64,000 bases of DNA, taken from NCBI GenBank assembly GCA_902586195.1, contig CACIGF010000003.1:1-64000 (forward strand), in the 5' to 3' direction. Source of the stretch: an uncultured beta proteobacterium. GTDB taxonomy: Bacteria > Pseudomonadota > Gammaproteobacteria > Burkholderiales > Burkholderiaceae_A. The notes beneath the pieces are model-generated. The model was not told the DNA's origin. It made no database searches and worked only from the letters and a program-made list of their open reading frames with translations. The translations under genes were made by a program, and so were the position numbers. The stretch's first letter is position 1. The number at the start of each line of letters is the position of its first letter. Shown here piece after piece: positions 31,698-49,669 of the stretch.

Positions 31698-32234
31698 ATG
31701 AAATCACAAATCCTAATTGGTTGTGGTAGTAATTTGAAAAATCCTCTTTTTCAAATTTCGAAAGCGTTACACTTATTATCAGCTAAAACCTATATTACCC
31801 TATATGCAACGTCTCCCATATACATAACAGAACCTTTAGGCTACAAAAAACAAGCTGATTTCTTCAATTGTGTAGTCTCTATAAAGACACGAATAAAAGC
31901 TCATTCCTTATTAAAAACATTATTAAATATAGAAAACAAAATGGGAAGAACCAGACTTTTTAAAAACGCACCTAGGGTAATCGATCTTGACCTGCTACTT
32001 TTTAGACACGAGAAAAAAATTATCCCTCGGTTGCCCCACTTGTCCTTACCTCATCCTGAGATGCTTCATCGAAAATTTGTACTCCAACCCATATCAGATT
32101 TAAATACTTACATTAAGATACCAGGAAAAAGGGCTCTTTATTACTACCTAAAGAAAACTTACAATCAAGAAATAAAAAAGTCTCACAAAAAAATTCGTCT
32201 TCCCTTTAAGTCTTTATGTCGCACTCCGAGGTAA
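31698..32234 (+). CDS. folK: 2-amino-4-hydroxy-6-hydroxymethyldihydropteridine pyrophosphokinase
   Basis: IGCGSNLKNP, GYKKQADFFNCVV, RVIDLDLLLF, LPHPEMLHRKFVLQPI; ATG at 31698. Confidence 0.92.
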   Translation: MKSQILIGCGSNLKNPLFQISKALHLLSAKTYITLYATSPIYITEPLGYKKQADFFNCVVSIKTRIKAHSLLKTLLNIENKMGRTRLFKNAPRVIDLDLLLFRHEKKIIPRLPHLSLPHPEMLHRKFVLQPISDLNTYIKIPGKRALYYYLKKTYNQEIKKSHKKIRLPFKSLCRTPR

Positions 32235-33107
32235 TAGACATTCTCCTTTTCCACCAAAAGCCAAATCCCCGACAAATCTCTTCGGAGGAACATTTACTAG
32301 GCTGGGAAAAGAACCATTAATTGATTCGATGACGGTTTTTAATAACCCCCAGTAAGAAGAAAAATCATGATAAGTCTCTTTAAAAACATGGGGAGATACT
32401 ACCTGATGTTTCGCGAAGATAAGCGTACCTCGTCGCATTCCATACCCCCACATTTTGCCAGCGGATCCCCCGACCATAGCACTCCCAGCGATCATATCGT
32501 TTGCAAAAAAATCTCCCACGTCCCCCGATACAGAAGCAAACCCTCTTCGCATTCGCCGACAAAAATTATTTCCCGCATTTCCTTTCACTGAAAGGAACCC
32601 TCCAGCCATACCCTCCATCTCGCCGGTTAAATTTGCACCAGCATAATTACCCACATCTCCGTCGACGATAAGACTTCCTCCCGACATCATCGCCCCAACA
32701 AAATGTCCCGCAGAGCCTTTAATCGTAATACTTCCTGTTTGCATCATGCAACCTACGTAATTACCTATATGTCCATTAATCAAAATATGCATGTCCTCAC
32801 TTTTAAACCCCAAAAAATCAATTTCGTTAAGGTCTCCTTGAAAAACTATTCTCTTAAAACTTTTTCTCCTATCTAAAATCTCGTGAGAACAAAAATGAGG
32901 AGGGAAATCATAATGATTTTCGTCATCCTGTGTAACAGAAAAAAACTCCTCAAAAGGCTTCTCCTTTGAACCATCTAAAACGGTAGCATCGGATGTTTTC
33001 CCATTAATAGAATCTTCAAAAAAATGCTTCCACTTTATATTTGAAAGATCTAAGCGAAAATCAGGTTTTTTAATTAATGATATTTCTAAAATTTTACTCG
33101 AGTTCAT
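32214..33107 (-). CDS. fhcC: Formylmethanofuran dehydrogenase/formyltransferase-hydrolase complex subunit C
   Basis: Repeated G-x2-G-x3-M-x-G-G-x-I beta-helix repeats; followed by fhcD/fhcA/fhcB. Confidence 0.92.
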   Translation of the reverse strand: MNSSKILEISLIKKPDFRLDLSNIKWKHFFEDSINGKTSDATVLDGSKEKPFEEFFSVTQDDENHYDFPPHFCSHEILDRRKSFKRIVFQGDLNEIDFLGFKSEDMHILINGHIGNYVGCMMQTGSITIKGSAGHFVGAMMSGGSLIVDGDVGNYAGANLTGEMEGMAGGFLSVKGNAGNNFCRRMRRGFASVSGDVGDFFANDMIAGSAMVGGSAGKMWGYGMRRGTLIFAKHQVVSPHVFKETYHDFSSYWGLLKTVIESINGSFPSLVNVPPKRFVGDLAFGGKGECLLPRSAT

Positions 33108-34059
33108 AATTAATCAATATATCCCTGAGATGGAAATGATGTGGCCCCAACTTACCTCCGTAGTTTCCTGCAGATAATCCAATTAAGCCCTTTTCACGAC
33201 CCACCCCAACCATCTTTTTTATAGCTTTAAACATAGCAATCTTAATGTCTTCCTCTGACAAACCATCGATAACGATCTCTAGCACACATCCTACCGATTC
33301 AGTCAACATTGAATCTTCTGTTATTCCAATCAGAGCAGGACAATATTTATCATTTGTTGAAGCCACAAGCGCTTTATATTTACTCCCTACTTTTGAGCCT
33401 GATCGCACAACCCCCCCCGGGAAAGGCGCAATTACATTTTCTAAGTTATTGATTTCACCAACTCCAATTTCTGAAATATGCAAGGCTGATTGTATATCCT
33501 CAGCCAATATCAAAATATTCCCGCCACCGATTGCTGTTTTATATCTGGCATTCTCCTCCCCTACAAATTCTCCATCCATGGTTGGAATTCTCCAATATCT
33601 TTTATTTTTTATTACTTTTGAAATTTGCCAGCCATCTCCAAAATATCTGAGATTTTTTACAAGCGCAAACTCTTTACCTTCAGGCATTCCGTTAAATACA
33701 CTGCTAGATGGGCACGTCAAAATACATTGTCCAACTCTATTTTCAACTTGCTTTGCCAACTCTTTGCTAGACACAGCAAATACTAAAACGGATACACCAG
33801 GTCTAGAATCTGGGGTCTCATCAGCTGTAAGTGTAGTTTCAACTGCCGCCTCACATCCACATGCAATAACAGAGGTCGCAAAGCCTGTCATTGAACTTGC
33901 TCCATACATTGCCCATTTAGCATTGTAAGCGGTAACGATTAACCTAGTTGCACGCATTGGAAATGCCTCAGCGAAAGTATCAAAAATTTTGACCCCATTT
34001 ACTAACATTTCTCTTCTTTGAACCTCCTCAAATCTTTCGTAAAATTCTTTTCCCACCAT
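33094..34059 (-). CDS. fhcD: Formylmethanofuran-H4MPT formyltransferase (complex subunit D)
   Basis: VNGVKIFDTFAEAFPMRATRLIVTAYNAKWA; GRPGVSVL-type and IGLSAGNYGGKLGPHHFHL C-terminus. Confidence 0.95.
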   Translation of the reverse strand: MVGKEFYERFEEVQRREMLVNGVKIFDTFAEAFPMRATRLIVTAYNAKWAMYGASSMTGFATSVIACGCEAAVETTLTADETPDSRPGVSVLVFAVSSKELAKQVENRVGQCILTCPSSSVFNGMPEGKEFALVKNLRYFGDGWQISKVIKNKRYWRIPTMDGEFVGEENARYKTAIGGGNILILAEDIQSALHISEIGVGEINNLENVIAPFPGGVVRSGSKVGSKYKALVASTNDKYCPALIGITEDSMLTESVGCVLEIVIDGLSEEDIKIAMFKAIKKMVGVGREKGLIGLSAGNYGGKLGPHHFHLRDILINYELE

Positions 34060-35671
34060 CTAGGAATAAGTCAATCTCACTTTCAGCAATGAATCCATTT
34101 CTAAATTCCCCAATACAATTTTTCTCGTAATATTTCTTTAAATAACTTTCAACACTACTATCAAAATTCACATCTAAATAATGTAATCCGGGTTTTGGAC
34201 AGTCAACTAACTTTCCGTTTCGAACGACCAATTTTCCGTTCTTATACACATACTCTGGAGTTGAAAACATATACTCTTGATCAGGATCCTCTTTATAAAT
34301 AACTATATCAGCATGCTTTCCTTTCGCTAGAGAGCCGTTTTCAACTAACCCAAGAATTTTTGCTGGAGCAGCGCGAGTCATTATTGCAATTTCATATAAT
34401 GAAAGCTCTTTCTTTATGTCTTTCAAAATACAATGCTCGATAACATCTGGATGTAATTGGTGTAACTGTTCATCTCTGAACTCCTTGTTCATGAGAAGTT
34501 TTATCAAATGAGGATAAGATGTAAAAGGACCACCGTTCGGATGATCGGTTGTCAAAACAACCTGCCATGGGTCGTCGACAAGTAAAAATATCTCTAATCC
34601 TATTACCCATTGTAATGCGTTAACAAAGCTGTTTTCTTTATATTTAAAGGGAACCACTCCACAACCAGCAGTACATTCAATATCACCCATGACCCACTTT
34701 TTTGGATTCGCGTTATTTCTGTTACTGTGTTGCTTCATAATATCCCCGGATGTCGTTACAGTTTGACCGAAAATAATTTGGCCGACATCAATTGAAATAT
34801 TTTTTGAAGTCTTGAGTTTTTCTGCCAATTGTTGTGAAGCAGATGAAAACTTTTTGGGTCCTTCAGAACCGTAACAATGAAATTGAACATGAGTAAGATG
34901 ACCTCGTATTCCCTCTAATGCGTCAATTGTTTCAATAGTTGATTTAATATTGCCAGGAACCCCTAAATTACTTGCATGAATATGTAAGGGATGAGGAACA
35001 CCCAACTCTTGTAAGGATAAGGAAAGCTCATGCACTATAGCTCGAGGTGTCAAGCCCCAGTGACTATGTTTTTCATCCAAATCAAGAGATCGTTGATTAA
35101 ACTTGAAAGCGGATATTCCTCCAGGATTCACAACCTTAACTCCCATAGCCTTACTTGCATTTATACTCCACCCGACATAATCGCGGATTAGACTATGTCC
35201 TTTCTTTTTCGCTAGCATTTCCAAAAGAATTTCATCATTACCTAGCATCACGTAACCACCGTGATCAAGAATTGGTACATCGCCCATCTCTAGATGGGCC
35301 TGCCTAGCATTTGAAAAGATCATTGCAGGCTCAAAAGCCGCAGTGTACCCCATTTCGGCATATCTATGGCCAGTATCAATAGTTCCTGGAACAGATTCTC
35401 CTTTATTTCCATATTCGAATCCATTCGATTTACACAAGCCTTCTGGCATTAACATTCTCGCAATGTTAGTTTTTCCACCGCCAATGTGAGTATGAAGATC
35501 AATCCCGCCTGCCATCATAATTGAATTACAACAATCAATCACATCATACCCATCACTTGATGGCATGTTCCCTATCTTTCCTTTAGGGTCGATGAAAATT
35601 GTTTCGAGAACATCATTTTTATTTTGGATGGGATCGATAACTCTAGCATTAATAAATTTAATTTCCTTCAT
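34028..35671 (-). CDS. fhcA: Formylmethanofuran dehydrogenase-like subunit A (amidohydrolase)
   Basis: GGIDLHTHIGGGKTNIARMLMPE, HIHASNLGVPGN, VLTTDHPNGGPFTSYPHLI. Confidence 0.96.
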   Translation of the reverse strand: MKEIKFINARVIDPIQNKNDVLETIFIDPKGKIGNMPSSDGYDVIDCCNSIMMAGGIDLHTHIGGGKTNIARMLMPEGLCKSNGFEYGNKGESVPGTIDTGHRYAEMGYTAAFEPAMIFSNARQAHLEMGDVPILDHGGYVMLGNDEILLEMLAKKKGHSLIRDYVGWSINASKAMGVKVVNPGGISAFKFNQRSLDLDEKHSHWGLTPRAIVHELSLSLQELGVPHPLHIHASNLGVPGNIKSTIETIDALEGIRGHLTHVQFHCYGSEGPKKFSSASQQLAEKLKTSKNISIDVGQIIFGQTVTTSGDIMKQHSNRNNANPKKWVMGDIECTAGCGVVPFKYKENSFVNALQWVIGLEIFLLVDDPWQVVLTTDHPNGGPFTSYPHLIKLLMNKEFRDEQLHQLHPDVIEHCILKDIKKELSLYEIAIMTRAAPAKILGLVENGSLAKGKHADIVIYKEDPDQEYMFSTPEYVYKNGKLVVRNGKLVDCPKPGLHYLDVNFDSSVESYLKKYYEKNCIGEFRNGFIAESEIDLFLDGGKRILRKI

Positions 35672-35684
35672 ATCTGTATTCTCA

Positions 35685-36893
35685 TTACATATTATCTATA
35701 AGTTTAGATATGAGGTTTTCTACCGTGTGTATATTGTCATTAACTAATTTTTTCAAAGGAATAATTACTGCTCCATCACATCGCATGATATACCCATTAT
35801 TGTTTACTCCAGGTGTAGCTATTGGTATAAATATAGAGTTTTTATTTTCTTTAAAAAATTTTGAGTATTTCTTCCCCATACTTTCTGGCCCTACTGCAAC
35901 AAAAGGATAATTTGAAACATTTTCATCCGGTAAATTATCGCAGAAAGACGAAAACCAAAGGATACTATCGATAGTTTTAAGTTCCAAACAGCGTTTTAAT
36001 GAGAATAATTCAGGCTGATAGTACAAGGATTTCGTAGAAAATTTTGACCTGATTGATTTTGCTGTCACCCATGATAGGGTATTTTGAAAACTCAAACCAC
36101 CGTTGTCACTGCCGAGAGTCAAAATACCTGCTCTTTTTTTTTGGTTGATCTCTTTGACAATCGCCATTAACGCATTGGCGATGTATTCTGAGAGTTCACC
36201 AAATTCCTGCGGATCCCAAACGAATGTACAGTATGAAGAGTTCCTCACTAAATTTACTAACTCATGATTACAGTCTATATCTGAGGTTGAGGATTTATTT
36301 TTTAGTAAATAAAGTAGTAATCTAACCTTCTCTAAAACACTAAAATCACAGTAAGAATCATCACTAGCCGATTTGGCTTCAATGACCCATGAATTTTTAC
36401 TGCTAAGATTTACTAACTCGGCAAATCGAGGTAAGCGCTTATTGGGCTCAGATTTTAAGAAAATTATTAAATCTGCTCTTGATTTAATTTCAGATAATGT
36501 TGTAAAAATTGTGCCCTTCGCTTGAAAACTCCTCAGCACAGCTGAAATGGAATCTCCGTGCAAATGATCTATTGTGGCATTACATTCCTTAGCTAATTTG
36601 ATTACAGACCTAGATCCCAAAATATCCAAGCCAAGCCCACCAAAAAAAGGGGACTGAGAGGAAGAAAGTAATTTAGATGTTTCAGTTATAAGATTTTGAA
36701 TAATCTCTTTTTGCCCATATAGGTAACCCAATTTGTTTTCTTTACTTGTAAAGTTAAATCTGGAAAGGCCCTCTGAAGCTTTAAAACACTTATTAGCATT
36801 CAAAACCTTCTCATTATTAAGTTTTGGAGCAACGAGATCGTCACAGTGCAAAGCACAAAAAGGGCATGCCCAGGATGAATTACTCATCACCAA
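35685..36893 (-). CDS. fhcB: Formylmethanofuran dehydrogenase-like subunit B
   Basis: WACPFCALHCDDL N-terminus, position upstream of fhcA, RCDGAVIIPLKKL C-terminus. Confidence 0.9.
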   Translation of the reverse strand: MVMSNSSWACPFCALHCDDLVAPKLNNEKVLNANKCFKASEGLSRFNFTSKENKLGYLYGQKEIIQNLITETSKLLSSSQSPFFGGLGLDILGSRSVIKLAKECNATIDHLHGDSISAVLRSFQAKGTIFTTLSEIKSRADLIIFLKSEPNKRLPRFAELVNLSSKNSWVIEAKSASDDSYCDFSVLEKVRLLLYLLKNKSSTSDIDCNHELVNLVRNSSYCTFVWDPQEFGELSEYIANALMAIVKEINQKKRAGILTLGSDNGGLSFQNTLSWVTAKSIRSKFSTKSLYYQPELFSLKRCLELKTIDSILWFSSFCDNLPDENVSNYPFVAVGPESMGKKYSKFFKENKNSIFIPIATPGVNNNGYIMRCDGAVIIPLKKLVNDNIHTVENLISKLIDNM

Positions 36894-37617
36894 AATCCAT
36901 CATAGAATTAAAAAGCGCACTACCTACCAACCATCCTGCGGCTTTGTATCTAGCAACAATCTCATAATCGTCTCGATCTCTCAATCCCCCCGCACCAAAA
37001 AATTCAACTCTAAGATTTCTATGAGTCATATTTTTTAGCCAATCTATATCAGGCCCCGAATCTGTGCCGACTTTATCTAAGTTCATTAAAATTACTCTTT
37101 TTGGTGGCAGTTTTAATATTGTATCTATTGTAACCATTCCCAAGATTACATTATTTTTCTTATCAATAGACAAGACAGCTTCGTCAAGCGTTGAAAATAT
37201 TTTTTTATACGATGCATTATCGGTTATCGTTTCTGTACCAAAAACTGGTACTAAATTCTCCCCAGAACATGGACTATAACCCTTTTTTTCACACCAATTA
37301 TAAAATCCATTATTAAAACTTTTCAACTCTCCGAGATCCCGGAATCCATTATCAACCCAAATCTCTACCTTGCTAAATTTCCTCATAATCTCGTACAAAA
37401 TACAGTCGTAAGAATCATCCCCAGCTATACCATTAAGATTAGCAACGTACAGAATATTCGATCTTGACAACTTTAAGAGAACCTCTATAATTCGACACAA
37501 GTCATTTGATTTAAATACTGCATTATCTAGTTGCTTATAATTTGCGCGATCTCCAGCGACTGCTCTTACAACAACGCCATTCCGAAGATCAACAACAGGA
37601 ATAATTTTACAAGACAT
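36880..37617 (-). CDS. HisA/HisF-related protein of H4MPT/methanofuran clusters
   Basis: KIIPVVDLRNGVVVRAVAGDRANYKQ (HisA-like N-terminus); GAGGLRDRDDYEIVARYKAAGWLVGSALF; start M at 37617 preferred. Confidence 0.85.
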   Translation of the reverse strand: MSCKIIPVVDLRNGVVVRAVAGDRANYKQLDNAVFKSNDLCRIIEVLLKLSRSNILYVANLNGIAGDDSYDCILYEIMRKFSKVEIWVDNGFRDLGELKSFNNGFYNWCEKKGYSPCSGENLVPVFGTETITDNASYKKIFSTLDEAVLSIDKKNNVILGMVTIDTILKLPPKRVILMNLDKVGTDSGPDIDWLKNMTHRNLRVEFFGAGGLRDRDDYEIVARYKAAGWLVGSALFNSMMDFGDE

Positions 37618-37621
37618 AAAA

Positions 37622-38551
37622 GTGCTGAATTTATTAATTTTTGAATCCATTACTGCAAACTTAAAGAATATCAAAAAAACGCCTAACCTTCTTTCTCAAA
37701 AAGACTTTATGTCGATGAAAATGCAAGGGAAGGCAATGGTAGATGCTTTATACTCTGACCTTAAACATATTAAACAGCTAAATACAACCATTGGAAAACA
37801 AAGATTCGGAGAAACGGCTCTCGATTTTTTTTCGGAGACTATTTCCAAAATTGATTTGGTATGGGTTATCGCACCAGAGAGTAATGGCGAACTCGAACGT
37901 TTTCACATTGCATCAAAAAAAAAACTATGGATAGGATCTGGTTTACAAGCAATTCGTCTTGCCTCTAATAAGCTGGAAACAAAAAAATATTTAAAATCTT
38001 TAGGTATAAATAACCCAGATGAAATTACGTTCAAATCATTGAGAAAAAAGAATTATACTAAGGCAGTATATAAACCTATCGATGGAGCTGGTACTACAGA
38101 TACATATCTAATTGAAAATGAAAAAAATATTTTTAACACACTTAGTAAAAAGCGCTCATGTTTCTTCTTGGAAGAGTGGGTAGAGGGAACGGCATATAGC
38201 GTATCCCTTAATTGCAAATTTTCAAATTTTGAAATTTTATCTATTAACAAACAGTACATAACTTCAAATCATGAGGGAAAACTCTTCTATGAAGGTGTCA
38301 AACCTGTAGAAAACAAGATGTTTAAAAAATTGTATGAGACTATTATGCCAACCATTTCTTTAATCGTCTCAAATATAACTGACTTGCGAGGCTTTGTTGG
38401 CATTGATTTTATTTTAAAGGAGAATTCCCAAATAAGTATTATCGAGATTAATCCAAGACTTACATGTTCATATGTAGGGCTTTCAAAATACAACAAAAAT
38501 AACACTGCTGTTAAGATTTTAAATTCATTTGAAATAAATAATTTAATATGA
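37622..38551 (+). CDS. ATP-grasp ligase (MfnD-like candidate amino acid ligase)
   Basis: KPIDGAGTTDTYLIENE, EEWVEGTAYSVSL, GFVGIDFIL...IIEINPRLTCSYVGL; GTG start at 37622 or ATG further in. Confidence 0.82.
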   Translation: MLNLLIFESITANLKNIKKTPNLLSQKDFMSMKMQGKAMVDALYSDLKHIKQLNTTIGKQRFGETALDFFSETISKIDLVWVIAPESNGELERFHIASKKKLWIGSGLQAIRLASNKLETKKYLKSLGINNPDEITFKSLRKKNYTKAVYKPIDGAGTTDTYLIENEKNIFNTLSKKRSCFFLEEWVEGTAYSVSLNCKFSNFEILSINKQYITSNHEGKLFYEGVKPVENKMFKKLYETIMPTISLIVSNITDLRGFVGIDFILKENSQISIIEINPRLTCSYVGLSKYNKNNTAVKILNSFEINNLI

Positions 38552-39600
38552 CCAGTTCAATAGGCTTAGATATCGGAGGCGCTCACCTAAAAGCATGTTT
38601 AATAAGAAATGATCCATTTATAAAATTGAGTAAAGTTGCCTTGTTTAAAACGCCTATATGGGAGTCAAAAAATACCCTCGTATCTGCTTTAGAAGAGATT
38701 AAAAAAAAGTGGGCTATGGGAAAAGATGTGCAGATAAATATCGCAATGACTGCAGAAATGACAGACTGCTTTATAGACCGAAGAGAAGGTGTGCGAAAGC
38801 TTCTTTCTGTGATCAAAAACACTTTTAGTTACGAGAAATTAAAAATCTACTCTACAAACGGACTTAAGGATATTAATATAACTTTTAATAACTACAAGGA
38901 AATCGCTTCTTCTAATTGGCATGCAACTGCCGACACTTTATCGAAGATAGAGAGGAATTGTTTCTTAATCGATATTGGCAGCACCACAACAGATATTATT
39001 CCTATACAGTTTGGCAAAATTCTATCACCTACTGCCTCAACTGATTTCTCACGTTTACAAAAAGGCGAACTAGTATACCTAGGCGTTTGCAGGACCTCGC
39101 TAAGTTCAATTAGAAGGCAACTGCTTTTCAGATCAAAAATGACAAATATCATACGAGAAAATTTCGCTTCGACCGCTGACCTATTTAGGTTAACAAAACA
39201 ATTAAATCCAAAATATGATCTTTACCCAACATTTGATGGAAAAAGTAAGACAAGGCTTGCAACAAGACAAAGATTAGCTAGAATCATTGGATTAGACATA
39301 CATGATTTAACTATTGAAGAACTAAATGCGCTTGCTCAGCAGATAAAGCAAATATTCGTCTCAGAAATTGTAGAGAATTTAAAAAAAGTAAGTCTCCAAT
39401 ATAATATGAGCCCGAGAACGCCAATTATAATTACTGGTTCAGGAAAATTTTTAGCTATGGAAATACAAAATCAGCTAAAGTGTCAAACAAAAATTTATTC
39501 TGATTTATTTTCCGATCGGGTAAAAATTCCACGATCAAAAATCGATGATGTAGACTGTTGTGCAACTGCATTTTCTTTAGCGATTAGCACCTATCTATGA
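38548..39600 (+). CDS. mfnF: H4MPT-linked C1 pathway protein, hydantoinase/oxoprolinase-like (MfnF family)
   Basis: SIGLDIGGAHLKAC, FLIDIGSTTTDIIPI, GELVYLGVCRTSLSSI; overlaps neighbours by 4 nt. Confidence 0.8.
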   Translation: MTSSIGLDIGGAHLKACLIRNDPFIKLSKVALFKTPIWESKNTLVSALEEIKKKWAMGKDVQINIAMTAEMTDCFIDRREGVRKLLSVIKNTFSYEKLKIYSTNGLKDINITFNNYKEIASSNWHATADTLSKIERNCFLIDIGSTTTDIIPIQFGKILSPTASTDFSRLQKGELVYLGVCRTSLSSIRRQLLFRSKMTNIIRENFASTADLFRLTKQLNPKYDLYPTFDGKSKTRLATRQRLARIIGLDIHDLTIEELNALAQQIKQIFVSEIVENLKKVSLQYNMSPRTPIIITGSGKFLAMEIQNQLKCQTKIYSDLFSDRVKIPRSKIDDVDCCATAFSLAISTYL

Positions 39601-40232
39601 TTCTTTTTAAGCTAGGGGGAAGCCTCTTAAATTCTGGGTTCATGAAATTATGGATAAATTTCATTACGGATCACTTTAAAGGTAGAGCTATTATTGTCCC
39701 TGGGGGAGGATTGTTTGCGAATCATATAAGATCGGTTCAAAAGAACTACAATTTAAAAGATGATATTGCTCACAATATGGCACTGTATTCGATGTCTCAG
39801 ATGGGTCTGCTCATTTCGTCAATAGATAGAACAAGCTTACATTTTTGCAATACGAAACATGAAATCAATGGAGTTATAGAAGATAACAAAGTTCCTATTA
39901 TAGGAACTTTTGATTTTTTAAAAAAAAGAATTGGCTCCCCTAATAAAAACTGGAGTATCACATCAGACAGTATAGCTTTACTAATCTCCAAAGAACTACA
40001 GCTTAATACCTTGCTTATCGTAAAATCATGTTGGTGCTCTTTCATAGATAGTAAAATTGCACTGAGCCAAATCAAAGTAAACAAATTAGTATCTTTAGGA
40101 ATTCTGGATGCTAGTTTTTCTCTGAACTTTCAAAATAGCAAAACAAAAGTTTTCCTTTTCTTCCGTGATCAATTACCAAATGCCTCTGATACACTTTTAA
40201 CCTCCTCAAAACCTAACAATAGGAGTCAATAA
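39597..40232 (+). CDS. mfnE: Amino acid kinase-family protein (MfnE-like, aminomethyl-furanmethanol-phosphate kinase)
   Basis: LFKLGGSLL, AIIVPGGGLFANHIR; next to mfnF-like and mfnB-like genes. Confidence 0.75.
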   Translation: MILFKLGGSLLNSGFMKLWINFITDHFKGRAIIVPGGGLFANHIRSVQKNYNLKDDIAHNMALYSMSQMGLLISSIDRTSLHFCNTKHEINGVIEDNKVPIIGTFDFLKKRIGSPNKNWSITSDSIALLISKELQLNTLLIVKSCWCSFIDSKIALSQIKVNKLVSLGILDASFSLNFQNSKTKVFLFFRDQLPNASDTLLTSSKPNNRSQ

Positions 40233-41484
40233 GATTTTCTAATCTTGTTCTGGACAAAGGGCCTGATCTTTTTTTCAAGCATACACCTCCCCGGTATCCA
40301 ACCCAATTTGGCTGAAGTTGGTTAATGAGCTTCGTATGGGAAACATCCAATGAACCAGCTATTCCGAACTTCACATTTCTCTCGAGAGCAAATTTTTTTA
40401 TTATGCTTAATTCTGTAAAGTTGACAATATCAAAAATAGATCCACTTTCTTTATTAAGTGTATCTATCATAATTCCAGAAAACTTGACTACCTCACTTGA
40501 AGGAATATTTTTGACAGTCTCAAAGGAACGTTTGTCTGCAATCATAAGTACTAAAATTAGTTTATTTTCCAAAACCTCGTTATTTATTTTATTCAAGCTT
40601 TCTGCAAACTTCCTTAAATTTGCCCAGGTATTCCCATCAGCAGATACACCGACTTTAATATAATCGAGTCCTGCTAAAGCAAGATTCTGGATTTTAGCTA
40701 TATCGGCTCCAGACAGGTTTCCATCATTAAGTTCGAAAGTTGTAGATATCTTTCCGCAAAATTTATTATTTCTGAGTGCCAATACAATATTTTTTATATC
40801 TATAAAATCTAGCATCCCTATAGGGCCATTCCCTGGTTCCTTTAAATCGATAATATCAATATTTAATCCATTGACAACCTTGACCTCTTCGATCGACCTG
40901 ATACTAACTAATAGTTTTATTTTTTTTTTATTTTCCTTACAGTGGTTTTCGTATTTTTCCATCAACCATTCCCATGCTTGGATCTCCTTCTTACCCGCTG
41001 TCTTGCTAATAGCTATTTCAAGATATTTAATTTCTTGTTTAATCTTGTCCTGTGAAAGAAGATCTAATCTAGACATCAACACTGAAGCTTCAATTATCGC
41101 CGCCTGTGCCCTATTAAAACCCTTAAAACTTGAAAGATGAATGACATCCACCTTATTCATATACAAAGTCGATCTAACTTCGTCATCATGAATCTCAGCT
41201 AATGACAAAGTCAAGTAGCTTAATGCATCTTTCAAGAAAAAACCTTTCTCGCATGGTAGTGCAACTAAATTGAAATTTGATCGTCCCGTAACAACCCCTG
41301 CAAACACTCGAACATCAGTTACAATATTCATAACTGCTGTTTTTTGTGTAAGAATATTGTCAAGAGTTTTTGAAGGTTTGAAAGGTTTTAACACCACAAA
41401 ATCAGCCTTTTGGGAAACACCCATAGGCGCAACATGGGAGCTTCCATCTTCATTCATTGTAGAGATAATTACTTCATAAATCAT
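40213..41484 (-). CDS. mfnB: Fusion: N-terminal DUF447-like flavin-split-barrel domain + C-terminal (5-formylfuran-3-yl)methyl phosphate synthase (MfnB/DUF556)
   Basis: N-term MIYEVIISTMNEDGSSHVAPMGV (DUF447-type); C-term LLVSIRSIEEV..IDLKEPGNGPIGM..LDYIKVGV..GIAGSL..GYRGGVC (MfnB-type) in one 423-aa ORF. Confidence 0.87.
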   Translation of the reverse strand: MIYEVIISTMNEDGSSHVAPMGVSQKADFVVLKPFKPSKTLDNILTQKTAVMNIVTDVRVFAGVVTGRSNFNLVALPCEKGFFLKDALSYLTLSLAEIHDDEVRSTLYMNKVDVIHLSSFKGFNRAQAAIIEASVLMSRLDLLSQDKIKQEIKYLEIAISKTAGKKEIQAWEWLMEKYENHCKENKKKIKLLVSIRSIEEVKVVNGLNIDIIDLKEPGNGPIGMLDFIDIKNIVLALRNNKFCGKISTTFELNDGNLSGADIAKIQNLALAGLDYIKVGVSADGNTWANLRKFAESLNKINNEVLENKLILVLMIADKRSFETVKNIPSSEVVKFSGIMIDTLNKESGSIFDIVNFTELSIIKKFALERNVKFGIAGSLDVSHTKLINQLQPNWVGYRGGVCLKKRSGPLSRTRLENLIDSYC

Positions 41485-42893
41485 TTTGAGATATTTTTTC
41501 TGTTTCTGATTTTCTTCTTAATTTTTGGCTGGCAATGAGTCAATGCGTCCTCTCTTCTCGGTTCTGCTGCTGCACCCCAATCTAATCCTCTATCCTGAGC
41601 GTATCTTTTGCCGAGACTCCATGCAATCTCCGCTCTCGCAAGCTCGACACCGAGGTAGAATGCGTGGCTTGAATCTTCCTCAACACCAAGTTTTTCAAAA
41701 AACTGAAAAGGATCTTGACCAGACCGCAATCCATCTCGGTTGTAAACATGTAAACCATCCGACGTAATCTGAATACGAAAATTCGGGTCTTTCACATTTT
41801 GAGCGGTAATTTTTATTTCCTCTAAAGAGTCAGGGAAGGGTCTTTTTTCATGAATCGTGAGCATGCTATTAGTTAGATTTTTTGGCAGTACTTGATTTTC
41901 CCTTGAGGCAAACATTACTCGGCGAGAGACATCGATTTCCTTAATTACAGACTTTGCATGATCGCTAACCTGTGTTGTCAAAACGGCACTGGCTCTAATT
42001 TCACTGCAAATTCCTAGCAATATGGCATTAATACCCATTGTATCAGCATCAATCAATTCAGTTAGATTACCTGTGCCGACAAGTATTTTTATTTCTGGAA
42101 ACATCAATCTTAATTTTGAGAATCTAACAACTGAATCAGTAAAACCAAAAGGTATAGGATCTAGAATAGAATCTGCCATAAAATCTATACCCATTCTTTT
42201 TAAGTGACGGATTGATTTGTATAACGAATCTATTCCTACAGTATTATCTGGAATAATTATTGGAATTGATTTTCTGTATTTTTCAGCAATCCACAAATTT
42301 TCTGGTACCAAGCTTAATAGATAGTCAGCCTGGGCAATAGCTCCTCTTTCCAATTCGCTTGGATTGAGAGAATCCACGCTAACTTTAAACCCGTGCTTTT
42401 TTAATTTAGCAATGCTAGCTTCTAAATGCGGAAACTCTGTATCTGGCAAACAACCCAAATCAATTACATCTGCTCCTGACCTTTCGAAATCTTTAGCTCT
42501 TTCTAAAATTTCTTCGGTAGTTAATTTGGTTGCATCTGTTATTTCTGCAAAAATTTGAATATCATGCTTATCCATTTCAATTTTTTTACCTCTCCTGTTA
42601 AAGAAATTCGGGATATCTTTCAACTCATCTGGCCCCCTTAATATAGAAATCTCTAATTTCTCGCCGAGTAATTTTAAATCTCCACGGCATCGCCCTGGGA
42701 CAATTATTTTGTCGAAACCTGCATATCTTGCAGGCTCCAATCTTCGCTCAATCATGTCTGCCGTCATGAGACCCGCTACCTGCAATCCGATTTCATAAAT
42801 TTCCCATGAAAATGCAGGAGGATCAATACTCTTTAGAGTTGTCTCGAGACTATCTTTAGCCAGCCTACCGGTTAGGAAGAGAATTCTATCCAA
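41481..42893 (-). CDS. Dihydropteroate synthase-like protein (DUF6513 + DHPS TIM barrel) of H4MPT biosynthesis
   Basis: ILFLTGRLAKDSLETTL, RCRGDL, SGADVIDLGCLPDTEF (DHPS-like), SVDSLNPSELERGA. Confidence 0.9.
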   Translation of the reverse strand: MDRILFLTGRLAKDSLETTLKSIDPPAFSWEIYEIGLQVAGLMTADMIERRLEPARYAGFDKIIVPGRCRGDLKLLGEKLEISILRGPDELKDIPNFFNRRGKKIEMDKHDIQIFAEITDATKLTTEEILERAKDFERSGADVIDLGCLPDTEFPHLEASIAKLKKHGFKVSVDSLNPSELERGAIAQADYLLSLVPENLWIAEKYRKSIPIIIPDNTVGIDSLYKSIRHLKRMGIDFMADSILDPIPFGFTDSVVRFSKLRLMFPEIKILVGTGNLTELIDADTMGINAILLGICSEIRASAVLTTQVSDHAKSVIKEIDVSRRVMFASRENQVLPKNLTNSMLTIHEKRPFPDSLEEIKITAQNVKDPNFRIQITSDGLHVYNRDGLRSGQDPFQFFEKLGVEEDSSHAFYLGVELARAEIAWSLGKRYAQDRGLDWGAAAEPRREDALTHCQPKIKKKIRNRKNISK

Positions 42894-43498
42894 TTTAATC
42901 CAAACTGTTTTAAACGCTTATCCAAAATCACCTGTAAATCACTTACAGTCTCCACGACTGTGCACTCTTCGAAGTTTTTCAATAATGCTAAATTGTCGAA
43001 CTCTACTTTGCGTGGTGTGAGCTCTACCCACTCCTTTGGTGATTCCGTTATAACGGTAGGTTCGGTATCACAAGCAAAAACAATTGTGTCTATCTTTAGT
43101 TTACCTGCTTGAGCAAACATATTTGTCGGTAACGTATCTGATATCCCCAAAGCACACTTAACAACTGTATTGCTAGTAGCAGGCGCTATTATAACTGTAT
43201 GATACCCATTTTTATACAAAGCTCCTACAGGTACGGCACTGTATGTCTTGTCTCTGAAAAGCTTATGTTTTAACTTGATATCATCAAGCCTGTGTCCGTA
43301 CATTGGTAATACTTCCTCTGCCGCCTTGGACAAAAAGATATCTGTATCGGGCATTTTATCTAAAAGCTGTATTGATTCTTTCAAATAATGCCCTGAGCCA
43401 GTCAAACACCATGCGAATTTAGAATTTTGATTTTTAACTTTTTGTTCATCAGACTGTGTAGCTGCAGAATGCCAAATATCATTGTTTAAATTTTTCAT
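42872..43498 (-). CDS. Flavoprotein (AfpA/DmrB-like archaeoflavoprotein of H4MPT clusters)
   Basis: FAWCLTGSGHYLKES, VIIAPATSNTVVKCALGISDTLPTNMFAQAGK; PPCDC-like flavoprotein fold. Confidence 0.85.
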   Translation of the reverse strand: MKNLNNDIWHSAATQSDEQKVKNQNSKFAWCLTGSGHYLKESIQLLDKMPDTDIFLSKAAEEVLPMYGHRLDDIKLKHKLFRDKTYSAVPVGALYKNGYHTVIIAPATSNTVVKCALGISDTLPTNMFAQAGKLKIDTIVFACDTEPTVITESPKEWVELTPRKVEFDNLALLKNFEECTVVETVSDLQVILDKRLKQFGLNWIEFSS

Positions 43499-43538
43499 AA
43501 GCTTTATAATCGTCAAACACTAATATGGATATTATCTC

Positions 43539-44033
43539 ATGACAATGGAACCAATAAAATTGAATACCCCTTCTCATTTAGGAAATCATTTCTCTTTTAA
43601 TGGCCTAGACATTGTCAAAATAACCAAGCTTAAGACGTCTACAGTGATTGGAATTTGTGAGGATGAATTGTTTGAACCTCAGCCATTAATCATTACAATC
43701 GATATGGGGATACTAAGACCAACAGCCTGTGATTCCGACAATATTAGGCAAACCGTTGACTACGACTGTGTGCGAAAAACTGTCATCAAATTCGCAACAA
43801 ACAATAAATACAAGCTTCTCGAATCTTTTGGAGAACAGTTGTCAAGAATTCTACTTGATAGATACAAGCTTTCAATCATCAAGCTAGAAATAGAGAAGCC
43901 AGCGAAATATCCGGATGTTGATTCTGTCGGTTTCGTCATGACTAGGAAAGCTAGTAACAAAAGTTTAAAATTTAGACATCACGAAAACAATATATTTTAT
44001 TTACTAGGTTCCGGAATTATCCCAAAAAAGTAG
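43539..44033 (+). CDS. folB: Dihydroneopterin aldolase
   Basis: GICEDELFEPQPLIITIDM, DNIRQTVDYDCVRKTV, LLESFGEQLSRILLDRY, KPAKYPDVDSVGFVMTR. Confidence 0.88.
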   Translation: MTMEPIKLNTPSHLGNHFSFNGLDIVKITKLKTSTVIGICEDELFEPQPLIITIDMGILRPTACDSDNIRQTVDYDCVRKTVIKFATNNKYKLLESFGEQLSRILLDRYKLSIIKLEIEKPAKYPDVDSVGFVMTRKASNKSLKFRHHENNIFYLLGSGIIPKK

Positions 44034-44085: not shown

Positions 44086-44592
44086 TTAGGCAGCAAATGG
44101 ATGTGCCGATGAACCTTTACTTGAAACAACTTCAGATGCAGTTGGCTGCCCAGAAACTGCGCGCTCAATAGCTTCCTTGGTTGCCTGATAGTTGTAGTCC
44201 TGGATTTTCTTATCATCCGCAGCTTCCCAGTGAATGAAAACTCCAACACTCACAAAAATATCGTCTGCTTCACTAGCCGGAATTGTACCGTCCTCAACAC
44301 TATCAGCCACAGCCATAGCAACAGCTCTTTGAGCAGGACCAAACATTTGTACAGCTTGTTTTGCACCCTTAATGGTGACTTTATTAAACATAACTGTCGC
44401 AGGCTTGCACATTAAGTTTGGTGCAACAACGGCTAAAAGGCTGGTAAACCCATCTTTGTTGTTGGTCAATGCATTGGTAAAAGCAGACTCTGCAGCACTA
44501 CCACGCGGTCCCAAAATAAGATCAATGTGAGCAACTTCATTTCCATCGCCGACTAGAGACTCTCCAACCATAACTCGGTCAATTTTTGCCAT
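44086..44592 (-). CDS. fae: Formaldehyde-activating enzyme
   Basis: [80 protein letters not shown]. Confidence 0.98.
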
Positions 44593-44664: not shown

Positions 44665-45600
44665 CTAAGCCGAATAATCAGGCTCTAACAAACCAAATAT
44701 CAAAAGAGAGCAAACAGTTATATCAGCACTAGTACCTGGATTTAAACCTCGCACCTTCAAGAACTCATCGAACTGTCTAATTCTCGACCGATTCGGCAAC
44801 ACCATTTTACCATTATTTACTTTATTTAAAACGTTTTCAAAGTTAATTTGATCTTGAAAAACTTTTATTGCTTTTTTTTTCACAAATTCAGCTACACGCA
44901 AGCCAAATTTTCGTTGAATATGAGAATCTCTGTTGTTAGTGAGCCAATAGAAATAGATCAGGGAAGCCAGGGATTGTCTACCGCATGGGTTAATAGGCTT
45001 TTCTTTATTTATCCACTGTCTTCGAAAATTTTCTTCTAAGACAGGCTGCTTTAAAATTTCGAAAAAACCAGAAAAATATTGCTTTGCAATAAAGTCTTTA
45101 TCCTTTGCTTGCCGCATTGCATCAATAATTTTCACATTTGTGAATCTAACATCCATCTCCCTATCTTCACCGAGGCCCCCCGGATTTGCATGAACAATTG
45201 CATCGTATATTAATTTTGATTGATCTAAATCAATTTTATATATGGTTTTCATTAACTCCGCTTGCAAAAAGTCTAACGGATCAACTAATCTCCTAAGTTC
45301 CTCGTCTGCCAATTTTTGCATTACATGAAGCACCGGCGCACACAAAAGAATAATCCCTAGATTTGTATTACAACCGACTGCCTTTATACTTTCTTTCGTA
45401 GCCAAATATATTTTTTCTCCAAGTTTTAATCCCGGTTGTACCATTAATGGTGCACAAACTTCGGAGCTCGTTATAAAATCTTGGCCAGTCATACCATACC
45501 CTGAAGAATTAAAACTCACATTTCCTGGTTTAAGAGCTTGAACATCTAATTGGCACGCAATTAAAAAGTTTCTTTTTAATGAACCTAAATAATCCATCAC
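44665..45600 (-). CDS. Triphosphoribosyl-dephospho-CoA synthase (CitG/MdcB)-like protein of H4MPT clusters
   Basis: ALKPGNVSFNSSGYGMTGQDFITSSEV, LGEKIYLATKESIKAVGCNTNLGIILLCAPVL. Confidence 0.88.
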   Translation of the reverse strand: MMDYLGSLKRNFLIACQLDVQALKPGNVSFNSSGYGMTGQDFITSSEVCAPLMVQPGLKLGEKIYLATKESIKAVGCNTNLGIILLCAPVLHVMQKLADEELRRLVDPLDFLQAELMKTIYKIDLDQSKLIYDAIVHANPGGLGEDREMDVRFTNVKIIDAMRQAKDKDFIAKQYFSGFFEILKQPVLEENFRRQWINKEKPINPCGRQSLASLIYFYWLTNNRDSHIQRKFGLRVAEFVKKKAIKVFQDQINFENVLNKVNNGKMVLPNRSRIRQFDEFLKVRGLNPGTSADITVCSLLIFGLLEPDYSA

Positions 45601-45611
45601 TTGATCAAAGT

Positions 45612-46547
45612 TTATCTCATTTTGGAAATCATAAACTTAATGATTTTTTCTGATATATTAATACTGCTTACGTTCTGCAATCCCTTCCAGGCAGGAACTC
45701 CATTTACCTCTAAAACTGTATATCCTAATTCTGACCTCTTGTCCTCTATTATATCAACCCCTCCAATTTCTAACCCCACTGTTCTTGTTGACTGAATCGC
45801 TAATTTTTTCAAAAAATTATCTGGAATAATTTGTCTACAAACTCCACCTTTGGCAACATTGTGAACCCAACCCTGCCCTTTTCTCTCCATTGCGGCAACT
45901 ACCTCGTCATCTACAACAAAAACTCTGAGGTCTCTCAAAGAACTCCCAGCCGATTCTACGAATTCTTGTATGTAGTAAACACCGTTAGCAAAATTAATCA
46001 TTTTTTCGAAATCTTTGTCGTTTTTTATTTTTTCTTCTATCAGTGTTACGTTAACTCCTTGTGAACCAAAAATTGGTTTGATAACCAGCTTCCGACCCTC
46101 GTCTAGTAGGCGATTAATAAGCGTAATGCCGGTTGCCTTATCTTCAAGTACCCAACAATCAGGAGTTGGTATATCTTGCATCCTTAAAAGAAAACTAGTC
46201 ATACATTTATCTACACTATTTTCTATTCCCCTTCCTGAATTCACAATTGGAATTCCAAGAAATTCCAATTGATGTAGAATTGCTAAGCGACGAGTAACTT
46301 GCTCTAATGATCCGCCCGCAATACCTCTAACGAAACAGCAGCTAGGACTTATATTAAAATTTCTCATTACAAAGTTGTCTTTAGCACAATCAATGAAAAC
46401 ATCAATAGAAGACAGGTTTAGAATTCTAGTTTTAATTCCCGAGAAATTGAGTCCAATTTTCAGCTGATCAATATGCCACCCTAGCTCATCAGAGAAAATA
46501 ACAATCTCTCCTTTTTTCCCGTTACTTACTTTTCCAGCCCTATCCAT
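45612..46547 (-). CDS. RimK/MptN-like ATP-grasp ligase
   Basis: VIKPIFGSQGVNVTLIEE, YYIQEFVESAGSSLRDLRVFVVDDEVVAAMERKGQGWVHNVAKGG, EVNGVPAWKGLQ. Confidence 0.9.
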   Translation of the reverse strand: MDRAGKVSNGKKGEIVIFSDELGWHIDQLKIGLNFSGIKTRILNLSSIDVFIDCAKDNFVMRNFNISPSCCFVRGIAGGSLEQVTRRLAILHQLEFLGIPIVNSGRGIENSVDKCMTSFLLRMQDIPTPDCWVLEDKATGITLINRLLDEGRKLVIKPIFGSQGVNVTLIEEKIKNDKDFEKMINFANGVYYIQEFVESAGSSLRDLRVFVVDDEVVAAMERKGQGWVHNVAKGGVCRQIIPDNFLKKLAIQSTRTVGLEIGGVDIIEDKRSELGYTVLEVNGVPAWKGLQNVSSINISEKIIKFMISKMR

Positions 46548-47515
46548 GACTCTTCTAAAAGAGGTATATTCAACTTTCCCTCAACCCACGACTTTCCACT
46601 ATCCAAATTACTGATTATTACTTTTGCAGGGGCAAAAAGCATTGGATCAATTTTATAAAAGTCATATGAAACAGACTTAAAGATTTCAGAAAATGACTTA
46701 CCGTAATCTTTGGAATTGGATGAAGGTAAAGCTTTGGAGAGCTTTTCGGATTCACTATCGTTTCCAATCACAACAAGTTGCACTAAACCTCCATATAAGA
46801 TAGCGTCGTTAGTTCTACCCATGGCTTCTAAAAAATCACTTGAAGGTAAAGGGATCGGCGCATTTGCAAAGCCTTCAACAACATTATGTAAAGGAAAGTT
46901 TAGGGCATGCAATTTATGCATCGCAACCTCCAACACCCTAGAAACTACCTGCGTAGTTCCAGCCAGGCTTGTAGTTGGTGTTATTATTAAAACGAGATTC
47001 TCAGGGTTTAACCTGCAATCATTAATAATCTTATCGATAATTTTTCTAGGGGGGTAACATGCTACCTCTAAAATTAAAACCCCTTTCTGAGATATTTCTG
47101 AATAAGCTATTTCCTTAATTAAATCCTCCCTATTGGCTAGCACACGGGCAGGTCCTGACCCAAGGCAATTAAAGGGTTTCCCTGCATTATCTTCTTTCGG
47201 CACGCTTAAACTCCAACCTGCGTACTGACTCGATAAGCAAGCTATAACGGGTACTGAACTATTAACAAAGACAGTGTTTGGAATTTTTCTTGTTGCATCC
47301 ATGCCTAAGGTGATGCTCCCTAATCCACCCATGCAAATTTCTGCTATTTTTATACCCGCCAAAACACTGCCTTTACAGTGCAGACCAGCGTCCAAAACTC
47401 GCACCCCGTTCGACTCACGTTTGACATTTATGTTGTACTTTTCGGAGTTTTTTATCATTAATTCAGCTAACCGGTAAGCATTATCATTAATAGCGAAGCA
47501 TACTTTATTGGTCAT
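46526..47515 (-). CDS. mch: Methenyl-H4MPT cyclohydrolase
   Basis: NGVRVLDAGLHCKGSVLAGIKIAEICMGGLG, TRKIPNTVFVNSSVPVIACLSSQYAGWSLS, GSGPARVLA; ATG 47515 preferred over track start 47530. Confidence 0.96.
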   Translation of the reverse strand: MTNKVCFAINDNAYRLAELMIKNSEKYNINVKRESNGVRVLDAGLHCKGSVLAGIKIAEICMGGLGSITLGMDATRKIPNTVFVNSSVPVIACLSSQYAGWSLSVPKEDNAGKPFNCLGSGPARVLANREDLIKEIAYSEISQKGVLILEVACYPPRKIIDKIINDCRLNPENLVLIITPTTSLAGTTQVVSRVLEVAMHKLHALNFPLHNVVEGFANAPIPLPSSDFLEAMGRTNDAILYGGLVQLVVIGNDSESEKLSKALPSSNSKDYGKSFSEIFKSVSYDFYKIDPMLFAPAKVIISNLDSGKSWVEGKLNIPLLEESWIGLEK

Positions 47516-47534
47516 ATAAAACTCTCCCAAAAAA

Positions 47535-48683
47535 TTAGGTTAATTGTGATAGCTTATTGTAAACAAATTCAACCTTGTCATTTAAAGCCCTCTGCAGTTC
47601 CACGATGCTACTTCCTCTTAAGAAAACAGAGCATACTGGTTCATACTTTTTAAAGAAGTATTTTCTATTAGGTATATTTGTTAGAAATTTATTTTTAAAC
47701 AGTGATTCCTGACAATTCTCATTCATATAAAAATCTGATTTTGCATATATAATCCGAAATCCAGAAATTATTTTTTTTTGCATAGCTGGAAAACTTTCAG
47801 GTATGCAAGTATTACCTGAAATGCCATTTGTAAGATGAATATGCCTATCAAAAAAACAAAATTTATGTGACTCCTGTAAAATCTCAAAAGATGCTGTTAT
47901 ACGAGGATTTAAGTCTAAAAAATGCACCGCTTTATCAGATACTAAAAAATCGATACCATTAAAACCTCTCAGTTTAAACTTCTGCATAATAAGTTTGGAA
48001 ATTCTCAAAGCCTCTTGATCGATGCTATCACTCAATTCGACTGGACCATCCAGACCACAAAACACAAAAGGTAGGTAACTTTGTTTGGTGGTAACTGGTT
48101 TACTGTAGCCCAGTGGCATAAAATTTTGTCCGTCAGCAAAAAAAGATAAGCTTACTGCCGTTCCTGGCAACTGTTTCTGAAAATACTCGGAACTTTTGGA
48201 TTTTCTTCCATATTTCTTTTTTATACCGTACCCACCTGAGGATCCTAAGTCTTTCAGTATCCAACCAGACCCAAGATCCTCAAAAGATTCCGCCGAAAAA
48301 TTAATTTGTGGGAAAGGAACTTCCAACAATTTCAATGTTTTAAAAAACATTACTGGATTTTCCAGACATTTAAAAACTGAAAGAGAATTCGCATACAATG
48401 GCAAAATCTCATTTGCCTGCCGCAGGATGTCATATTTTCCTTCAAAACCCGATCCAATGATCACTCCTTTAAAACCATAGATTTTGAAAACCGACAGAGA
48501 GTTTAAAAATTTTTTACTGTCTATGCCCGTTTGCCCAGGAAAACAAGTTCCTATGTGCCGCCAAAATGGTACCGAAATTAGACAGTCCTTATCTCCAAAA
48601 ACGTCCATGACACCTAATTTAAATCCAAATCTTTGAGAAGAACAAACAACACCTCTTCCGCTCAAGGCAGCAAGTACATACAC
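47535..48683 (-). CDS. ATP-grasp protein of H4MPT clusters (possibly Orf17-like)
   Basis: WILKDLGSSGGYGIKK, GFNGIDFLVSDKAVHFLDLNPRITASFEIL; directly upstream of mch. Confidence 0.82.
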   Translation of the reverse strand: MYVLAALSGRGVVCSSQRFGFKLGVMDVFGDKDCLISVPFWRHIGTCFPGQTGIDSKKFLNSLSVFKIYGFKGVIIGSGFEGKYDILRQANEILPLYANSLSVFKCLENPVMFFKTLKLLEVPFPQINFSAESFEDLGSGWILKDLGSSGGYGIKKKYGRKSKSSEYFQKQLPGTAVSLSFFADGQNFMPLGYSKPVTTKQSYLPFVFCGLDGPVELSDSIDQEALRISKLIMQKFKLRGFNGIDFLVSDKAVHFLDLNPRITASFEILQESHKFCFFDRHIHLTNGISGNTCIPESFPAMQKKIISGFRIIYAKSDFYMNENCQESLFKNKFLTNIPNRKYFFKKYEPVCSVFLRGSSIVELQRALNDKVEFVYNKLSQLT

Positions 48684-48691
48684 AACAATTC

Positions 48692-49669
48692 CTATCTTCC
48701 AGTTTTAAATAGCTGATAACCTCTATTTCTTGCACAAGTTACATCAAATCGAAGACCATCAGTCAATAAATTATTTTGCTTCAGAAATTTAAGGGCTTTT
48801 TGTAATTCATCATTGGACTCGAAAATTGCAAAACCGGTGGGACCCCAGGATGACTGTCCGCTTCCAATGTCAAAGTTCTTTGCTAGAACACTTATTACAT
48901 TTCCAACTGAAGGACTTGAGAATGTTGAACCATCCTGGGCATTAAAAAAAAACTCTCCCATTAAATCCTGGATGTTAGTTATGCCCTCAGCAAATGACTC
49001 GAAATCTTTGTCAATTATTGCAGGAATGACTCTTAGCAACGTTTCGCGACAAAGTGTAGATGATTTTTCTTTTGTGATTTTTGGCAATCCCTCTATTGCC
49101 TTAATTTCTCGATCTCCATAAAAGTGTGAGGTTTTATCTTGCATAACTAGCAATATTTTCCAGTTTTTCGGAAAACTTACCCGTGAAATCAACGGTGGCT
49201 GCCTAGCATCAGTAAGCTTGCCTCCATCGACGATGAACCCACCTTTGTCAAAGCCAATAATCCCAATTCCACTGCGTTTGCCCCTATTAATCGTTAAGCT
49301 AAGATGCTCGGTTCTAGGCTTCAAATTAATTATTTCGAGCAGCGATCTGCTAAGGGCCAATGCTAGTTGAGTACCTGAGCCAAAGCCCGAATGCCTAGGA
49401 GGTTTTTTCTTAAGAACGATGTTGAAGTTATCGGCAAACCCGTATCTTTTTTTTAATCTTGTTATTGTGACTCTAAAAAATTTAGCAGTCTCCTCATCCA
49501 ACGCATCACCGGTGATAATCAAAGTTTTTGATCTCCTAACCTCCAACTCTACGTTGTACCCCTCAATAACAAGACCTAAGCTGGCAAATTGACGTCCCGA
49601 CAAACCCGTTGGATCTAAAAATCCAAAATGCAGTCTTGCGGGAGCGATAAGGGACACACAATCATCCAC
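48692..49669 (-). CDS. Beta-ribofuranosylaminobenzene 5'-phosphate synthase (GHMP superfamily)
   Basis: APARLHFGFLDPTGLSGRQFASLGLVIEG, RHSGFGSGTQLALALSRSL, GKRSGIGIIGFDKGGFIVDGG, QSSWGPTGFAIF. Confidence 0.93.
   Translation of the reverse strand: MDDCVSLIAPARLHFGFLDPTGLSGRQFASLGLVIEGYNVELEVRRSKTLIITGDALDEETAKFFRVTITRLKKRYGFADNFNIVLKKKPPRHSGFGSGTQLALALSRSLLEIINLKPRTEHLSLTINRGKRSGIGIIGFDKGGFIVDGGKLTDARQPPLISRVSFPKNWKILLVMQDKTSHFYGDREIKAIEGLPKITKEKSSTLCRETLLRVIPAIIDKDFESFAEGITNIQDLMGEFFFNAQDGSTFSSPSVGNVISVLAKNFDIGSGQSSWGPTGFAIFESNDELQKALKFLKQNNLLTDGLRFDVTCARNRGYQLFKTGR

Follow-up and report, generated by a model that had tools for sequence, protein, structure and literature searches.

A single open reading frame of the window (the whole stretch of 64,000 nucleotides analyzed here) joins a DUF447 protein to MfnB, which raises two questions: whether the fusion is genuine, and what it says about the role of DUF447. 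The frame lies on the reverse strand at 40213..41484, begins with ATG and encodes 423 residues. Pfam places the DUF447 part at residues 3-176 (40957..41478, reverse strand) and divides this family into two domains, a refinement of the earlier note. DUF447_N (PF04289, residues 3-114, E 6.5e-21, 74.9 bits for a curated cut-off of 24) is followed by DUF447_C (PF20766, residues 124-176, E 3.8e-18, 65.7 bits for a curated cut-off of 24.8); both are complete in the frame and stand in the order found in the family. The MfnB part matches 4HFCP_synth (PF04476) at residues 191-418 (40231..40914, reverse strand) with E 3.4e-37, covers positions 1-227 of the 228 of the profile, and scores 128.8 bits for a curated cut-off of 22.4. 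The earlier reading of a DUF447-type N-terminal half and a complete MfnB-type C-terminal half, in one uninterrupted frame, is confirmed by these matches, by the lack of an internal stop and by the presence of the same fusion in MED-G174 (see below). Family motifs are found in the DUF447 part (APMG 19-22, FKPSKT 35-40, GFNRAQ 122-127) and kept in the MfnB part (DLKEP 213-217, DYIKVG 274-279, MIDTLNK 339-345, GIAGS 374-378); the junction reads KENKKKIKLLVSIR. Proteins of solved structure match the two halves separately: 3b5m, 2iml, 2nr4 and 2ptf the DUF447 half, 4rc1 and 4u9p (MJ1099, MfnB) the C-terminal half.

The fusion sits in a complete archaeal-like cluster of C1 metabolism, for formaldehyde oxidation with tetrahydromethanopterin and methylofuran. 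Directly upstream, a DHPS-like gene (DUF6513 / TIGR00284, 41481..42893, reverse strand) has a 4-nt overlap, at its stop, with the ATG of the fusion; the two are therefore probably translationally coupled. Further on are found, from profile matches, a flavoprotein of the AfpA / dihydromethanopterin reductase (acceptor) type (42872..43516, reverse strand) and a FolB-like dihydroneopterin aldolase (43539..44033, forward strand), then fae, for the formaldehyde-activating enzyme (44086..44592, reverse strand), and the remainder of the cluster, CitG-like, MptN-like ligase, mch, ATP-grasp and RFAP synthase (44665..49669, reverse strand). On the other side an MfnE-like kinase gene (39597..40232, forward strand) converges on the 3' end of the fusion, and the two 3' ends share 20 nt (40213-40232). 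It is preceded by genes for an MfnF-like protein (TIGR03123, 38548..39600, forward strand), an ATP-grasp ligase of the MfnD-like group (37622..38551, forward strand), a HisA-like protein of Orf17 type (36880..37674, reverse strand) and fhcC, fhcD, fhcA and fhcB, encoding the formyltransferase/hydrolase complex that uses methylofuran (32214..36893, reverse strand). The neighbour set is that of the orf19-orf20-afpA-orf21-orf22 island of methylotrophs, described in Methylosinus (PMC3615186), in which Orf22 is MfnB and Orf21 is MfnE (PMC8141765) and the genes are separate.

The distribution of the architecture was then surveyed. MfnB is present in 49 of 369 genomes of the window's class. Leaving the window aside, 48 of these remain, and 46 of them have DUF447 as a separate frame immediately upstream of MfnB; the two genes usually overlap by 4 nt or lie a few nucleotides apart. 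This bears out the statement that the two are normally separate. In a sample of 399 genomes of the phylum, MfnB was found in 20 and DUF447 in 18; all 18 also carry MfnB, DUF447 alone occurs in none, and two genomes (G756, G580) contain MfnB with no DUF447 match. No DUF447-MfnB fusion was found in the phylum sample outside the window, nor among 72 other Pseudomonadota MfnB genes or genomes (the class and phylum samples together with two order-level and three genus-level relatives). Long open frames at four loci (L032, L033, L037, L079) were examined as possible fusions and rejected, DUF447 overlapping in another frame. The architecture is thus not widespread, as the earlier note had considered it might be, nor already characterised as far as the literature was searched: no paper on this domain architecture was found. 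The fusion is genuine, local to a small clade of marine Burkholderiales, and its architecture is new as far as searched.

Eight genomes of the genus were compared, the window genome being G000. The same fusion of 423 residues, 84% identical and also with a run of ten A at the junction, is present in an independent assembly, G001 (MED-G174, Burkholderiaceae). In G006 (AH-736-P17), DUF447 and MfnB are 94% and 79% identical to those of the window genome; the junction run is A8, nine A would give the fused frame, and the frame is split there. In this genome (L047:1220-1240) MfnB lies in the -1 frame downstream of the A8 run (A_AAA_AAA), which the DUF447 stop closely follows. G007 has DUF447 and MfnB in one frame, separated by a single TAA, with an ATG for MfnB; in G004 and G002 the two genes are adjacent, in different frames and with their own starts; G003 and G005 gave no match. 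G004, whose contamination is estimated at 6%, also contains a second, partial MfnB-like stretch (L015, G004:C39:13394-13873). A gene fusion is thus caught near its origin, with separate overlapping genes, one frame with one stop, the fused gene, and the fused gene minus one base.

In the three close genomes (G000, G001, G006) an ATG, GTG or TTG start for MfnB exists in the fused frame only, none being available with one A more or less, and both halves are under purifying selection (dN/dS of 0.28-0.32 for the MfnB half, in all three pairs, and 0.07-0.20 for the DUF447 half); the fused frame is therefore the coding frame of the clade. In G006 either the sequence contains a slip, or MfnB begins at a rare ATT or CTG codon, or frameshifting is needed; being one A short, this genome suggests that the fusion may be unstable or the G006 sequence wrong. 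Of a stop or frameshift between the halves, which the earlier note had named as refuting its observation, nothing is seen in the window genome, where A10 is intact; a frameshift is present only in the related G006. The DUF447 tree of the trio, (G001,(G000,G006)), is weakly supported (84/63), and the MfnB tree leaves the branching of the same genomes unresolved.

We consider it probable that the locus reflects a recent fusion of translationally coupled neighbours in one marine Burkholderiales clade, tethering MfnB to a DUF447 protein of the pterin arm. Loss of the DUF447 stop and of the MfnB start would have merged the two genes; in the resulting two-enzyme polypeptide the MfnB half would supply the furan precursor and the DUF447 half would serve the pterin arm. 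The main effect of the tether would be to hold the two enzymes at equal amounts, with no need for shared chemistry or substrate channelling. This reading agrees with the surrounding pathway (fae, mch, fhcABCD, RFAP synthase, MfnE, MfnF) and with the close outgroups of the same genus, where the genes are adjacent and separate, in G007 by one TAA. It is less comfortable with the missing A of G006 and with the divergence of the MfnB half, whose PF04476 score in the comparison of genomes, 130 bits, lies below the 133-252 bits of nearly all the others.

The motifs DLKEP, DYIKVG and MIDTLNK align with DVKNP, DYIKVG and MLDTAIK of MJ1099, and the positions equivalent to its active-site lysines K27, K85 and K155 are all kept. 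A catalytic or substrate-binding role is documented for K155 (PMC11365854). Family membership and these conserved positions point to a working MfnB, which would make (5-formylfuran-3-yl)methyl phosphate for methylofuran. The half shares 20-31% identity with relatives from outside the genus and falls below the curated cut-offs of NCBIfam (124 bits for the best subfamily model, cut-off 286; 80 bits for the named synthase model, cut-off 304), so that Pfam places it in the family as a divergent member, outside the NCBIfam equivalogs. A structure model of the whole fusion, built from a four-row alignment, has a mean pLDDT of 58 and is usable for the MfnB half only, itself of middling confidence (mostly pLDDT 60-89). 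Foldseek gave 4rc1 and 4u9p as the best matches of this half (E ~5e-7, target TM 0.67), and in the model it is a TIM barrel related to MJ1099. Compared with MfnB / Orf22 (PF04476; MJ1099, PDB 4u9p, 4rc1), the C-terminal half is thus alike in its full length, aligned active-site lysines and cluster, and differs by its N-terminal fusion to DUF447 and its divergent sequence.

The N-terminal half is by its sequence relatives (PF04289 + PF20766; 3b5m, 2iml, 2nr4, 2ptf) probably an FMN-binding split-barrel protein; 2ptf is presumably an FMN complex, and the attribution to a flavin-type family made in the earlier note stands on this relation. It has the full length of these proteins and differs in not being a separate frame. 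Stand-alone DUF447 is usually a frame of about 184-203 residues, and the proteins of other Pseudomonadota are about 48-63% identical to this half; its model, with pLDDT 27-41 over residues 1-120, is too poor for a check of the fold. No tested function of DUF447 or COG2457 was found in the literature; one 2026 paper ties DUF447 to cannulae, without test.

What DUF447 does was addressed by the earlier note through the fusion, taken as a Rosetta-stone link: DUF447 would be a flavin enzyme of methylofuran biosynthesis, acting on the MfnB product or channelling it. The fusion itself speaks for this, as do the adjacency of MfnB in the 46 class genomes and the co-occurrence in the phylum sample (18 of the 20 MfnB-bearing genomes, DUF447 never alone). 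We nevertheless find such a role improbable. Among four control genomes, DUF447 is present in M. jannaschii, M. acetivorans, Haloferax volcanii and Sulfolobus acidocaldarius, whereas MfnB was found in the first two and not in H. volcanii or S. acidocaldarius; conversely, no DUF447 match accompanies MfnB in G756 and G580. Elsewhere in Pseudomonadota, in classes other than that of the window, the genes run MfnB, FolB, MfnE, AfpA-like, DHPS-like, DUF447, with MfnB kilobases away from DUF447; the DHPS-like gene adjoins DUF447 in both cluster arrangements. MfnB is moreover fused elsewhere to another partner: in six genomes of other Pseudomonadota classes its C-terminus is joined to a FolB-like dihydroneopterin aldolase (L049, L051, L052, L057 and L058, confirmed by Pfam, and L059, by tblastn only), and L051 (609 aa) is a MfnB-FolB-MfnE fusion. 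No paper on the MfnB-FolB fusion was found in the literature. As in the window, MfnB is there joined to an operon neighbour; unlike DUF447, the partner lies downstream and is a pterin enzyme (with the kinase MfnE in L051). FolB has no step in common with MfnB.

Fusions in this cluster thus join whichever genes are neighbours, DUF447 in one clade and FolB in others, and are not evidence of a shared reaction. They track gene order, so that a Rosetta-stone argument gives no particular pointer to furan chemistry, and the link claimed on that basis finds little support; since DUF447 and MfnB are already immediate neighbours in the class, their fusion adds nothing beyond the operon. Channelling also fits poorly with the model, in which a helix (165-186) runs almost directly into the first barrel strand (192-195), with a linker of about 5 residues. 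The start of the first strand of a TIM barrel is on the face opposite the active site, a matter of general fold knowledge. The better guess, from context, is that DUF447 most likely serves the tetrahydromethanopterin arm beside the DHPS-like protein. The survey steers the search for its role toward pterin biosynthesis; as to function, the fusion is rather a caution and says little about what DUF447 does.

The junction itself contains a run of ten A (T10 on the forward strand; 40920..40929, reverse strand, codons 186-189). Read as A9 or A11, the protein would end at 188 or 193 residues, that is DUF447 alone at its stand-alone length. The run could accordingly be a dual-output site, where slippage of the RNA polymerase or the ribosome would yield DUF447 alone besides the fusion, and where in G006 (A8, A_AAA_AAA) slippage or -1 frameshifting would restore the fusion. 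The position of these stops is consistent with such a site, as is the MfnB of G006, under purifying selection without an ATG, GTG or TTG start; in many bacteria, runs of nine nucleotides are long enough for selection against slippage to show (PMC1088944). We judge it unlikely all the same. The window contains three runs of ten, including that of the junction, and none longer; 16 A or T runs of at least nine occur in ~49 kb of coding sequence, another A10 lying within 37622-38551, so that long runs seem tolerated. The DUF447 tail is K-rich and AAA makes up 74% of lysine codons, which makes the run an ordinary one here, and the A8 of G006 may be nothing more than an error of sequencing or assembly. 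Slightly more doubtful still appears a built-in switch at the junction, in which the run length would set each clade member to DUF447 alone or to DUF447-MfnB and slippage would give the other product. That the true junction is A9 or A11 and the genes are two, as the long homopolymer and the different run of G006 might suggest, is very improbable, and a missed stop was rejected, since two diverged assemblies (the window genome and MED-G174) agree on A10 and no alternative frame offers a separate MfnB an ATG, GTG or TTG start.

Conservation differs along the cluster. The MfnB half (40213-40914), MfnE and FhcB are unusually divergent here, and DUF447, the DHPS-like protein and Fae are well conserved; judging from these sequences, evolution in the window lineage seems to be faster in the methylofuran arm than in the pterin arm.
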